35,332 nucleotides of DNA. Source: Bacteroidota bacterium (GTDB lineage: Bacteria; Bacteroidota; Bacteroidia; J057; RFSG01). The notes under the pieces are model-generated. The model saw only the letters and a list, made by a program, of their open reading frames with translations. It made no database searches and was not told the origin of the DNA. Location: positions 1-35,332 of the forward strand of contig CANHCC010000005.1 of NCBI GenBank assembly GCA_947459115.1, written 5' to 3'. Positions within the stretch are counted from its first letter, which is position 1. Every line of letters starts with the position of its first letter. This document shows, one piece after another, positions 4,645 through 11,063 of the stretch. A program made the position numbers and the translations under genes.

Positions 4645-4668
4645 TATTTCCGGATAGTGATTTCCCCC

Positions 4669-5406
4669 ATGAAACACCTGATTGCACTTACGATATTACT
4701 GGTTTTGTTGGGCCTCAGTCAACAATCCTGTAACCGTGAGGGGGGAAGAGGAATATTTTGCCTGAAGCCCAATGCAAGAATTGTAAGCAAAACGATTTAT
4801 CCGGCTGAGTTTTCTTCTGTACGGATGATACATCCTGCCTCTGTTGTGCTTCAGCATTCCAATGAATTTCGCATGGATGTAGAGGGAGATGAAAACATAC
4901 TGGACAATATAGACTATAAAATTCAAGATGGAGAACTCAAGATTCAATTCGACCGCTGTGTAAGAAACCTAAACAATCCTCCCAAAATCACCTTGAGTGC
5001 ACCTTATTTTGATGGATATTACCTCATGAGTTCCGGTTCCCTTTACATGCCCGACACATTTAAACAAACCGGCAGTTTCACTTTAGACATTTCCGGTTCC
5101 GGAGAGATCAACTGTGTGGTATCTGTGGATGAGTTGAGGACTAAAATTTCCGGCACCGGCTCCATTCGTGTTTCCGGAAGAACGAATACACAAACCCTTA
5201 ACAATAATGGCAGCGGGGACCTGGATTGCTTAGGCCTCCTCAGCAATCGTGCAGAGGTCAATCTGATTGGCTCAGGCAATGCAAATTTGAGCGTAAAGGA
5301 CTATTTAAAGGTTAAAATCAGCGGGAGTGGAAATGTCAATTATTATGGCAGTCCGACGATTGAAAAAGAGGTAACAGGTTCGGGCAAAATAACACAGTTG
5401 AACTAA
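4669..5406 (+). CDS. Head GIN domain (DUF2807) lipoprotein-like protein
   Basis: Start moved to ATG 4669. Signal/lipobox 'LLGLSQQSC'; repeated Gly-Ser-Gly turns 'ISGSGEI..ISGTGSI..NNGSGDL..LIGSGNA..ISGSGNV..VTGSGKI' typical of DUF2807. Confidence 0.85.
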   Translation: MKHLIALTILLVLLGLSQQSCNREGGRGIFCLKPNARIVSKTIYPAEFSSVRMIHPASVVLQHSNEFRMDVEGDENILDNIDYKIQDGELKIQFDRCVRNLNNPPKITLSAPYFDGYYLMSSGSLYMPDTFKQTGSFTLDISGSGEINCVVSVDELRTKISGTGSIRVSGRTNTQTLNNNGSGDLDCLGLLSNRAEVNLIGSGNANLSVKDYLKVKISGSGNVNYYGSPTIEKEVTGSGKITQLN

Positions 5407-5513: not shown

Positions 5514-7733
5514 ATGAATAAATTTCTAATTCTTCTATTTGTCCTCCTGATGGGGAATACAGCGTTGATGGCCGGCGATACGACCTTTGTTCGTGCTCAC
5601 AACAAACGCCATCTCAATTGGTATGGAAATTTTGATGAATGGACGGTGTTTCCAAACAATGGCCAATCGTATGAGAGGATTTGGTTATACTTTACCTATG
5701 GATGTCCATCTACCAATTGTTCCCAATGGGACTATACTACCAAAGTGTATTACCGGCAGCATACGGGGCAGTTGGATTCTACCTTACAGCAGGCGCCATG
5801 GTTTACAGCAAATGGGCAGGCTCCGGATTCTGTTTTGTTTAATCTGGATACTACCTGGTCTTATTTTTTCAATACGACAACTCAGACCACAGATTCTACC
5901 CCATCCACGCCTATTCAAATTGTGGAATTTAGGGACACCTTAAACCCCTTATCTTCGACTAATTCTTTTACGGCGTTTCCTGCCGGTTATTATAACTATT
6001 TATATGATTCTAACGGCACCATAATTGATTCATTGTATGTGGCACCGGACTCCACCTGGATGCAAGGACAATGGCCTTATTGGAATGTCTTTGAGGTCGT
6101 CAATAATATTGAAATTGCAAGAGCAATCACCCCGTATGGCGGGCAACTCCCCAATACCTGGAGTTTTACTTGGGTGAGTGATGTTACAGACTTTGCCCCT
6201 TTGTTTAAAGACTCTGCTGAATTTCGTGTTTTATACGAGGGATATCAGGATGGCTTCACGGTATCTCTGGATTTCGCCATGGTTCATGGCACGCCTGCTC
6301 GGGAAGCCTTAGGGGTTCAACAAATGTGGACAGGTGGCTTTTCGTATGGCATTACTACTGACCCTATCGAGGACCATCTGGATGCCCGTGTAGTTCAAAT
6401 TCCAACTTATGCAACAGGAGGAACCAAACTTCGCATTTTACAGACTGGGCATGGCTTTGGCGGAAATCAGAACTGTGCTGAATTTTGCCCCAAAAACCAT
6501 TACATTTCTGTTGACCAGGTAAACACCCATACCGGTTTGGTGTGGAGAGACCAATGCGGATTAAACCCTATTTTTCCTCAGGGAGGCACCTGGTTATATG
6601 ACAGAGCCGCGTGGTGTCCCGGAGAAATTGTTTATCCCTTCGAATATGAACTCACCCCTTTTGTTACGCCTGGTGGCTCCCATACTTTAAACATGGATAT
6701 GGATCCCTTTACGAATGTCAATAATAATTATCCCGGCTATGGCGTCGGGGCAAATTTGATTTATTATGGCAATCCAAACTTTACCAGAGATGCTGGCATA
6801 GAAGACATCCTGGCCCCCAGCCGTGACATGCGTTATCATCGCTTTAATCCGGTTTGTGGCAAACCCAGAATTGTCGTGCGTAACAGTGGCACAGCACCGC
6901 TGACCTCAGTAGATATTGAATATGGAATTGCAGGCTCCGCATCCTCCAGTTATACCTGGACGCCGGTATCGCCCTTAGCCTTTTTGGACACCGCATGGAT
7001 TGACCTTCCTGCGCCAACTTATTCCGACCCTTCAAGTACAGGAACATTCTTCGCGCGCATAGCAGGACTCAATGGCACAGGTGCCGATGAATACCAGACA
7101 AACGATACCCTATTTAGCCAGGTGGAGCAGCCCCCTGTTTATCAGGATGGCATTATCATAGCCATCAAACCCAATAACGCCGCCTCTCAGACTAAAGTAG
7201 AGGTACAGGACGATAACGGCAATCTGGTCTTTAGTCGTGCCAATTACACCGCCAATCAATTAGAACGAGACACCCTGTTACTCCCGCATGGTTGTTATCG
7301 TTTTGAACTGAAGGACGCCGGCAAAAATGGATTAAGCTTCTTTAACTTTAATAACGACGGAGCAGGAACCGCACGCTTACACAATGTGAATAGCGGGGCC
7401 ATGCTCATTAACTTTGACCCCAATTTCGGAACCTCCCAAATCCACTATTTTACCGTTCAATACGGGCTTCAGACAGAAACCCTCCCTGAAACACTCGAAT
7501 GGAATGTCTATCCGAATCCTGCGAATCAATTTATAAAGGTTGATGTCAATAGCTTGTCTGAATATCAGGCCGGGCTTTGGAATATGCAAGGTGTTCAGGT
7601 AAAAAGCTTTGAGAATGTATTCGGAGGGAGTACCCTAAATATTAAAGGGCTGACGCCAGGCTTGTATATTCTTCGACTGGAAGAAGGCGGAGAGGTTAAG
7701 CATACCCAAAGAATCGTCGTATTATCAGAATAA
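5514..7733 (+). CDS. Peptide-N-glycosidase F-related secreted protein with T9SS C-terminal sorting domain
   Basis: 739 aa, signal peptide; 'ERIWLYFTYGCPSTNCSQWDYTTKVYYR' resembles PNGase F-like N-domain; C-terminus 'EWNVYPNPANQFIKVDV...GLTPGLYILRLEEGGEVKHTQRIVVLSE' is T9SS type A. Confidence 0.75.
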   Translation: MNKFLILLFVLLMGNTALMAGDTTFVRAHNKRHLNWYGNFDEWTVFPNNGQSYERIWLYFTYGCPSTNCSQWDYTTKVYYRQHTGQLDSTLQQAPWFTANGQAPDSVLFNLDTTWSYFFNTTTQTTDSTPSTPIQIVEFRDTLNPLSSTNSFTAFPAGYYNYLYDSNGTIIDSLYVAPDSTWMQGQWPYWNVFEVVNNIEIARAITPYGGQLPNTWSFTWVSDVTDFAPLFKDSAEFRVLYEGYQDGFTVSLDFAMVHGTPAREALGVQQMWTGGFSYGITTDPIEDHLDARVVQIPTYATGGTKLRILQTGHGFGGNQNCAEFCPKNHYISVDQVNTHTGLVWRDQCGLNPIFPQGGTWLYDRAAWCPGEIVYPFEYELTPFVTPGGSHTLNMDMDPFTNVNNNYPGYGVGANLIYYGNPNFTRDAGIEDILAPSRDMRYHRFNPVCGKPRIVVRNSGTAPLTSVDIEYGIAGSASSSYTWTPVSPLAFLDTAWIDLPAPTYSDPSSTGTFFARIAGLNGTGADEYQTNDTLFSQVEQPPVYQDGIIIAIKPNNAASQTKVEVQDDNGNLVFSRANYTANQLERDTLLLPHGCYRFELKDAGKNGLSFFNFNNDGAGTARLHNVNSGAMLINFDPNFGTSQIHYFTVQYGLQTETLPETLEWNVYPNPANQFIKVDVNSLSEYQAGLWNMQGVQVKSFENVFGGSTLNIKGLTPGLYILRLEEGGEVKHTQRIVVLSE

Positions 7734-7833: not shown

Positions 7834-9471
7834 ATGAAACATCTGAAACCCTCCATCCTCGTGCTGCTCGTATTTCTGCCTGCTCTCTTTCTGAAAGCTC
7901 AGACGACCTGCTTGAATTTCACCGGCACGACCCAGCAATATTTGCAGGACATTTCCATCAACAATACTATGTATCCAATTGGCAGCATGGTATTTCAAAC
8001 CGGACCGATTCGGGTATTTAAAGTTGGTTTGCCGACCCAATACATCTCTGCCTCCAATGACACAATATGTTATATTGGCAAAATTGAATTTAATCTTGCA
8101 ACTGCCCCCTTTGCTCAAAGGCAATTTTCATTTACCTCAATTGTTACCCAAGGATTGATTATAGATGGAGATACTGTTTTTCAAAACATGACGCCACCCC
8201 CTCAATATTCCGGAAATGGATTTCAGGTATCGTATGCATCCAACCAGTTTACTATTACAGGAACTTTCGACACGGTTCACATATTTGGCTCTACCAATTG
8301 CCTGAATGCCATTTGCCTTACCCAACTACCAGGCCCTAATCAGATTTGTATGGATTTCGGCACCACCGTATCCGCCCAATATTGCAATGCCATATCCACG
8401 AATCACACCCTTTACCCGGTTGGAACGGTCTTATTTCAATCCCCGCCAATCCGAATACTCAAAGCGGATACCACCACCATATTTCTGAATGCACGGAATG
8501 ACACCATTTGGTATATTGGCCGGTTATTGATAGATATTTCAACGGCATCTTTCTCAAACCGGAGATTATCTTTCAACTCTATATTACTTTCAGGTTCTAT
8601 TGTGGATGGGGATACCACCTTTCAAAACATGACCCCACCAGCTCAATACAATGGCCCGAATTATCAATTCAACTACAACAACCCGCAATACCGATATACG
8701 GGTAGTCTTGACTCTGTATTATTGTTTGGTTCTACGAATATTTTACATGCCATATGTCTGGACTCTCTCGGCACCACAACCCAAAACTGCATCAATTTTA
8801 CAGGAACATCCGGTCAATACCTTAACGACATTTCTACCAATAATACCTTATACCCATCAGGAACAGTCGTATTTCAATCCGGGGATATTCGCATAAGGAA
8901 AGTAGCTGTGCCAACACAATTTATATCTGCTTCCGGTGACACTCTGTGCTACATAGGAAAAATAGAATTAGATGTAACCCAAGCCCCCTTTGCACAAAGA
9001 AGGCTCACCTATCATTCTATCATCACACAAGGCATGGTTGTCGATGGAGACACCATATTTAAAAACAACAATCCCCCTGCCCTTTATAATGGAAATGGCT
9101 TCACGGTAAGCTATCTGAACAATGTGTTTACGGTAACGGGCGCATTTGACACGGTTCATATCTTTGGTTCCACCAATTGCCTGAGTGCGATTTGCCTCGA
9201 TAATATTTCAACCGGGATAACAGATGACAACAATCCAATGCAGGCGGAAATTTACCCCAACCCATCGTCAGGCCTATTATATTTCAAAGGCGTTGAGGGA
9301 AATAATCCCATTCAGATTTACAACCTGCAAGGTATTCGGGTCTATTCTGGCATCTTAGATGAAAATCAAAAGAGTTTAGATTTAAGTGCGCTACCGGATG
9401 GCTTCTATTGGATACAGCTACAGAACGCCTCAGGTGTTATTCAAACTGAAAGGTGGATATTACGGCGATAA
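7834..9471 (+). CDS. T9SS-exported protein with three tandem ~146-aa repeats, function unknown
   Basis: 545 aa; signal peptide; repeats begin at C26 (nt 7909), C172 (nt 8347), C319 (nt 8788); C-terminal 'AEIYPNPSSGLLYF...LPDGFYWIQLQNASGVIQTERWILRR' T9SS sorting domain. Confidence 0.85.
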   Translation: MKHLKPSILVLLVFLPALFLKAQTTCLNFTGTTQQYLQDISINNTMYPIGSMVFQTGPIRVFKVGLPTQYISASNDTICYIGKIEFNLATAPFAQRQFSFTSIVTQGLIIDGDTVFQNMTPPPQYSGNGFQVSYASNQFTITGTFDTVHIFGSTNCLNAICLTQLPGPNQICMDFGTTVSAQYCNAISTNHTLYPVGTVLFQSPPIRILKADTTTIFLNARNDTIWYIGRLLIDISTASFSNRRLSFNSILLSGSIVDGDTTFQNMTPPAQYNGPNYQFNYNNPQYRYTGSLDSVLLFGSTNILHAICLDSLGTTTQNCINFTGTSGQYLNDISTNNTLYPSGTVVFQSGDIRIRKVAVPTQFISASGDTLCYIGKIELDVTQAPFAQRRLTYHSIITQGMVVDGDTIFKNNNPPALYNGNGFTVSYLNNVFTVTGAFDTVHIFGSTNCLSAICLDNISTGITDDNNPMQAEIYPNPSSGLLYFKGVEGNNPIQIYNLQGIRVYSGILDENQKSLDLSALPDGFYWIQLQNASGVIQTERWILRR

Positions 9472-9496: not shown

Positions 9497-9540
9497 AAAA
9501 CGAAAAATCCCCATATCTGACTATGGGGATTTTTCGTTTT
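9497..9540. terminator. Long perfect hairpin, likely terminator (bidirectional by symmetry)
   Basis: AAAACGAAAAATCCCCATA-tctgac-TATGGGGATTTTTCGTTTT: 19-bp perfect arms, 6-nt loop, T-rich 3' side, 26 nt after the T9SS gene stop. Confidence 0.85.
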
Positions 9541-9907: not shown

Positions 9908-10936
9908 TTATTCATCTGCCTGAAATGGATCTGTATAATCCATTGAATTCTCATCTTCCTCTGAATTTCGAATATTCACAGCAATAAGTTCCTGCTTGTC
10001 GTTATAATCCAGATTAAACTGTACCACATCTCCTTCTCTTAGTTTATTAAAATCATCCGGATTTAATAAATAAGAGAAATGAAAGAATAGATTGTTCGGA
10101 GCCGGCGGATACTTAATAAACCCGAAGCCTTTTTTAATACTCAGAATAGACCCTTCATAAGTAGGGGCATCCGGATCTATGGTTCGTTCCTGATGAGCAG
10201 ACTCTTCCTGATGCTCATCCTGATCTTTAGCATGGTATCCATTGCCGGGATTGTGACTGCGGCTGGATGGGAACTGCACAAACATATTCGTAATGATAGG
10301 ATCCGGCTCTTCTGCATTCAAACCCGCTTCAATAATGTCGTGCATTGGGATTGGGAAAGTGGCTTCCTGAAGCAAATCCTGAGAAGTACGGGTAACCATA
10401 GATTTACCCATATCATTGGTAAATTCAAAATCCCAACTGATGAGCATGACTTTAGTCCCGAGTGTATTTAGTTTTCGAATCAAGGGCAGATAATCTCCAT
10501 CGGAAGTAATGAGCACCAGAACATCAAACTGTTTAAATTGAGCTAATTCAAAAGCTTCTAAGGCGAGCCATACATCAATACCTTTTTCTTGACGATTTCC
10601 TTGAAAGTTTTTAAGCGGCAGATAATGGGTGATAACCCCTTCTGACATTAAGATATCATCAAATACTCTATCATAATATAATTGATTATTTCTTTGACTT
10701 GCATCCTGGGCATTCAGTCTGCCACGAAAAAAATGCGCATCAACGATGTGGCATAATCGTACATCTGTCTCTGACGCTTCAGCTACTTTGTGTCGAATAA
10801 ACTGATGCAGACCAGAGACACTAATTCTACTTCTGCGGGCATGTCCGTAATTATAATAATTGCTGACATGTAGGTAATAATTGCCATCATAAAAAACCCC
10901 AATACGGGTCAGGCTTTTATTAAACTGATTCTTCAT
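9908..10936 (-). CDS. NYN domain (PIN-like) putative RNase fused to C-terminal cold-shock-like domain
   Basis: Start moved to MKNQFNK. 'RIGVFYDGNYYL', 'QEKGIDVWLALEAFELAQFKQFDVLVLITSDGDYLPLIRKLNTLGTKVMLI' is NYN/PIN-like; 'YEGSILSIKKGFGFIKYPPAPNNLFFHFSYL' is CSD-like. Confidence 0.85.
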   Translation of the reverse strand: MKNQFNKSLTRIGVFYDGNYYLHVSNYYNYGHARRSRISVSGLHQFIRHKVAEASETDVRLCHIVDAHFFRGRLNAQDASQRNNQLYYDRVFDDILMSEGVITHYLPLKNFQGNRQEKGIDVWLALEAFELAQFKQFDVLVLITSDGDYLPLIRKLNTLGTKVMLISWDFEFTNDMGKSMVTRTSQDLLQEATFPIPMHDIIEAGLNAEEPDPIITNMFVQFPSSRSHNPGNGYHAKDQDEHQEESAHQERTIDPDAPTYEGSILSIKKGFGFIKYPPAPNNLFFHFSYLLNPDDFNKLREGDVVQFNLDYNDKQELIAVNIRNSEEDENSMDYTDPFQADE

Positions 10937-11063
10937 ATTAAACTTATTTACTAAATAAAAAAAAAGTACGTTTGTTCTTAAAAATCGGCGCAAGATAACA
11001 TAGGATTCCTATCGTTCACCGGAAATCTTAAATAATTTTACTAAAATCTAAAATCAAGGCACC

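Follow-up and report, generated by a model that had tools for sequence, protein, structure and literature searches.

Type A cargo of the T9SS is anchored through anionic LPS in the species that have been studied (PMC9143113), and SprF, a PorP-like protein of F. johnsoniae, holds the adhesin SprB (PMC9143113, PMC12635249). SprB-type adhesins with PorP/SprF partners carry repeated extracellular domains, as does the protein analysed here, which is encoded in a 35,332-nt stretch of Bacteroidota DNA, referred to as a whole as the window. It is an undescribed, otherwise ordinary kind of modular surface protein. The Bacteroidota have a large pool of unexplained T9SS cargo, and this repeat contributes to it an extracellular domain that no family library lists, now with a first alignment and a confident model, and related to a broader set of C-x-D-F...IDN-x-C surface domains.

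Architecture and surroundings of the repeat protein

The repeat protein is a T9SS cargo, as a preliminary description of this DNA had claimed, and its tail is of type A. Its C-terminus (residues 473–543) matches TIGR04183 at 44.9 bits, against a cut-off of 23, and is also matched by Pfam Por_Secre_tail; the N-terminal Sec signal peptide is clear by eye, and the SprA translocon is encoded in the same genome (SprA_N, 480 bits, in a 2438-aa frame). Genome-wide, 77 TIGR04183 matches lie above the cut-off, the repeat gene counted in. Between signal peptide and sorting tail the protein consists of repeats only (Table 1).

Table 1. Features of the repeat gene and its surroundings (window coordinates)
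Feature	Position	Strand	Details
DUF2807 gene	4657..5406		flanking gene
Upstream neighbour	5514..7733	+	739 aa, second T9SS type A cargo, N-glycanase_C (PNGase F C-terminal) domain
Whole gene	7834..9471	+	545 aa: signal peptide, three repeats, T9SS type A tail
Signal peptide MKHLKPSILVLLVFLPALFLKAQ	7834..7902	+	read by eye from sequence
Repeat 1	7909..8343	+	C26, C79, C156, C161
Repeat 2	8347..8784	+	C172, C184 (extra), C308; W at C2 position, I at C3 position
Repeat 3	8788..9225	+	C319, C372, C449, C454; heads both structure-prediction sequence sets
T9SS type A C-terminal sorting domain (TIGR04183)	9250..9462	+	
Intrinsic terminator	9497..9540	+	19-bp hairpin, -26.6 kcal/mol, z -8.1, T-rich 3' arm
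Tandem copies of CCACCTTGCGCACCTCCGCGTTCCTCGCGGTAAAA	9578..9697		three copies, spacing 42-43 bp
NYN/cold-shock gene	9908..10993		flanking gene

The three repeats are in frame and homologous, with the starts and the periods (438 and 441 bp) given in the preliminary description. Repeats 1 and 3 are 66% identical at the protein level, repeats 1 and 2 49%, and repeats 2 and 3 51%; in a small pairwise BLASTP search the E-values between repeats run from 6e-72 to 4e-48, far beyond chance. We found no match to the repeat in Pfam, NCBIfam or the PDB sequences, in line with the earlier failure to recognise a known domain. Hits at E 0.06 to 0.4 to PDB sequences (6igs and Brain tumor protein) and to Pfam models (WASH-7_C, BamE, TIG and DUF7927) were dismissed as chance. 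The BamE match to full-length P0001 (E 6e-6, above the cut-off) is a sum over copies of a 32-residue stretch, a single repeat giving E 0.06.

Repeats 1 and 3 each carry four cysteines, which we number C1 (first residue), C2 (position 54), C3 (position 131) and C4 (position 136). The region of C2 reads DTICYIGK, DTIWYIGR and DTLCYIGK in repeats 1, 2 and 3, and that of C3 reads GSTNCL, GSTNIL and GSTNCL. The pattern first described thus stands insofar as C2 and C3 are both replaced in repeat 2 while all three repeats have C1 and C4, but it overlooked C184, an extra cysteine of repeat 2 (repeat position 13, QYC, nt 8383–8385) where repeats 1 and 3 have leucine. The protein has eleven cysteines in total, of which repeat 2 holds three, an odd number. 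C184 is unmatched, and in the repeat 3 model the equivalent site lies in a helix; C184 could be a free thiol or make an intermolecular link.

Since a strong terminator follows the repeat gene, the gene is probably the last of its transcription unit. It starts 100 bp downstream of the gene for the N-glycanase_C cargo, on the same strand, and this cargo is a possible partner of the repeat protein. Just past the terminator lie the tandem copies of CCACCTTGCGCACCTCCGCGTTCCTCGCGGTAAAA; their core occurs nowhere else in the window, where the chance expectation is 0.

Relatives and distribution

Homologues with other copy numbers, as envisaged in the preliminary description, do exist: six other genomes encode relatives, whose repeats number from 1 up to at least 4 per protein. 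A profile of the three window repeats identified a protein of the same layout in genome G187, which ranks in the class of the window's genome (three repeats, signal peptide, type A tail), and on its own found no relatives in GTDB genome contigs; a profile of six repeats, G187's added, found four loci in GTDB genomes. One of these (L061, a Flavobacteriales record) is the same as G187 and encodes the identical protein, another (L062) is cut by the contig start, and two from Crocinitomicaceae encode four (L063) and two (L064) repeats. As in the window protein, only repeats lie between signal peptide and sorting tail in the L061, L063 and L064 proteins. Two more genomes that carry the family, G407 and G419, come from G187's family. 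G407 has at least four repeats spread over two contigs, presumably in a single gene, and G419 (locus L073, 6246–8792) encodes an 848-aa protein with one window-type repeat, three C-x-D-F...IDN-x-C (IDNIC) domains, PKD and a type B-like tail.

Among 395 sampled genomes of the class, the family was present only in the window's genome and G187, and is therefore rare and patchy. It was absent from 21 other genomes of the window's order, and no relatives were found in viral contigs, phages or plasmids. That the nearest known relatives belong to another order is compatible with horizontal transfer, without amounting to a demonstration. Weak matches at E 1e-5 to 1e-3 in G050, G126 and G509 were read and turned out to be unrelated large envelope proteins. 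In L061, repeats 1 (8001–8435) and 3 (8913–9347) are 95.6% identical, and repeat 2 is about 81% identical to either; such closeness points to a duplication of recent date or to gene conversion. Repeats 1 and 3 resemble each other most in the window array too, at lower identity.

The IDNIC domains, which occur as three copies in one array with a window-type repeat, are 79–82% identical to the first of them in L073 and matched no Pfam or NCBIfam model. In hhalign, the repeat aligned with them at a probability of 78% and a score of 36.8, compared with 16.9 for the reversed control and 21.8 for the best of 60 shuffles, over 91 columns only, in the C-terminal two thirds (columns 43–143). Judged from this alignment, the IDNIC domains are remote homologues of the repeat. 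The two have in common a cysteine at both ends, a V-x-F-D strand, a V-[ND]-G turn and a G-x-[IF]-[ND]-x-[IV]-x-L strand ahead of the last cysteine. The IDNIC domains differ in lacking YPxG, GSTN and the second cysteine pair; their two cysteines correspond to C1 and C4. A search of 119 relatives of the window's genome found no IDNIC domain, a result that says little given that the query comes from another order.

Predicted fold and proposed cysteine pairing

AlphaFold modelled the repeat with a pLDDT of 72 from a three-sequence input; with thirteen sequences the pLDDT rose to 95.0 and the pTM was 0.89, with all five models at 94 or above. The model is nearly all beta, with one helix (9–17) followed by eleven strands, in agreement with the compact beta-rich fold anticipated earlier. 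C2 lies in strand 52–62, and the last strand (122–139) carries both C3 and C4. The N-terminal ten residues have a mean pLDDT of 97 while being mostly outside regular elements, as would be expected if residue 1 were pinned by a bond. The D-G-D-T motif sits on a predicted hairpin turn between strands 82–85 and 88–92; we set aside a calcium loop for this motif, a hairpin turn being more likely.

Foldseek searches against the PDB and viral models returned nothing at an E-value of 0.001 or less, and TM-scores were low; some adhesin, pilin and carbohydrate-binding folds are among the top ranks, too weak to name a superfamily. We use 'beta-sandwich' as a reading of the strand pattern together with these weak fold matches. 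Near the top of the list are CBM29, the CLIPPER domain (9ifr) and the A domain of the Candida Epa adhesin, which are all-beta like the repeat but reach TM-scores at or below 0.37 in the better model, at about 10% identity and with no E-value of 0.001 or less. The presence of CBM29, cellulose-binding domains and Epa lectins among the weak matches, together with the PNGase F C-terminal domain of the second T9SS cargo upstream, would fit repeats that act as carbohydrate-binding modules and work with this neighbour on glycoproteins or glycans. We regard this as unlikely: the fold matches have TM-scores at or below 0.42 and E-values above 0.001, the repeat has no Pfam match to a known carbohydrate-binding module family, and a reading of the ORFs beside the relatives in L020, L063 and L064 found none of the N-glycanase_C type.

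We examined the cysteines in an alignment of 17 repeats, the three of the window and 14 from relatives. C1 and C4 are present in 17/17. Window repeats 1 and 3 alone have both C2 and C3, and the states of these two positions match in 16 of the 17; the exception is L052_1, with an aligned cysteine at the C2 column in a loop of different length. Where cysteine is absent, positions 54 and 131 are mostly occupied by bulky hydrophobics. The earlier proposal that the outer two cysteines form one pair and C2 and C3 the other is well supported by these matched states, by the invariance of C1 and C4 and by the remote homologues, which hold only C1 and C4, with the disulfides themselves being putative. 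The pairing C1–C2 with C3–C4 was rejected because repeats without the C2/C3 pair invariably keep C1 and C4.

A different second pair is found in 14/14 repeats from outside the window and in 0/3 window repeats. One partner lies in an S-x-N-C-x-N-K or Y-S-C-K loop and the other two or three residues past C4 (that of L073_b, in CLDSC, lies outside the alignment end and was read from the protein sequence). In the G407/G419 branch both partners have moved together, with YSCKK or YSCKA accompanying CLxxC in place of NCxNK with CLxC. C1–C4 would accordingly be a core bond, and C2–C3 or the alternative pair an optional second one.

The repeat tree groups the window repeats (98/99) and places repeat 3 outside repeats 1 and 2 at only 84/84; a clade of repeats 1 and 3 is not rejected (p-AU 0.316). 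On this tree, the most parsimonious history has C2/C3 changing twice and the alternative pair once. The coupling thus comes down to three or four events; they all agree, and the statistics are suggestive without being strong. The branch of repeat 2 is the longest of the three (0.67) and this repeat gained an unmatched cysteine, as might be seen if the pattern were drift in a fast-evolving repeat, silent on pairing, or if C184 made an intermolecular link. We consider this quite improbable, since all relatives lack the C2/C3 pair and all have both members of a different pair. The description of repeat 2 as having lost its two cysteines is not supported: because no relative has the C2/C3 pair and the tree leaves the order of the window repeats open, gain before the split of repeats 1 and 3 and loss in a fast-evolving repeat 2 are both possible.

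Returning to the two-pair reading, we tentatively suggest that the repeats may form a new beta-sandwich family that has no near neighbour among solved structures, with one disulfide staying in place and the second having relocated between two sites by lineage, and with mixed states within one array. If so, the repeats would provide a natural series for how disulfides move in evolution; the alternative second cysteine pairs make a neat but small test case of such relocation.

Proposed role and comparison with known surface proteins

We favour, with moderate confidence, the following architecture and role. The cargo would reach the cell surface or the medium and present three tandem beta-sandwich modules, each held by a C1–C4 disulfide that ties the first residue to the last strand. 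A second bond, C2–C3, would join strand 52–62 to the last strand in repeats 1 and 3, with Trp and Ile filling the site in repeat 2; in the relatives the second bond would run instead from the S-x-N-C-x-N-K loop that follows strand 52–62 to the very C-terminus (C-L-x-C). The product would be a string of stapled modules, surface-anchored or secreted, suited to multivalent binding. By analogy with the modules of other Bacteroidota surface proteins, multivalent binding or adhesion at the cell surface is the most likely role; the analysis turned up no ligand, catalytic residue or partner.

Alternatively, the repeats might bind no ligand themselves and serve as a passive spacer or stalk, keeping something else off the cell. 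The variable copy number (1 to at least 4), the lack of a conserved catalytic-looking cluster and the position of D-G-D-T on a hairpin turn would all suit such a part. This is, in our view, rather unlikely: the window, L061, L063 and L064 proteins have repeats alone between signal peptide and sorting tail, which leaves a stalk nothing to carry.

In both the L073 and L051 genomes, an ECF sigma factor gene overlapping that of a likely anti-sigma protein with a CHU_C/FlgD_ig-like C-terminus lies directly downstream of the repeat gene (L073, 8841–10573; L051, 1824–3576), which suggests regulated expression tied to T9SS cargo.

The binding or adhesive role can be set against the SprB/SprF system. 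The G407 and G419 relatives resemble that setting (PMC9143113), with a PorP/SprF gene directly upstream, PKD and a type B-like tail, followed by the genes for an ECF sigma factor and its probable anti-sigma partner, and this supports an adhesive role in these relatives and, by inference, in the window protein. The window protein itself differs from a SprB-type adhesin in having a type A tail, not type B, and in having no adjoining PorP/SprF gene among the three flanking genes of Table 1. As a domain family the repeat is new and rare, and it belongs to a known kind, that of tandem beta modules in T9SS cargo.
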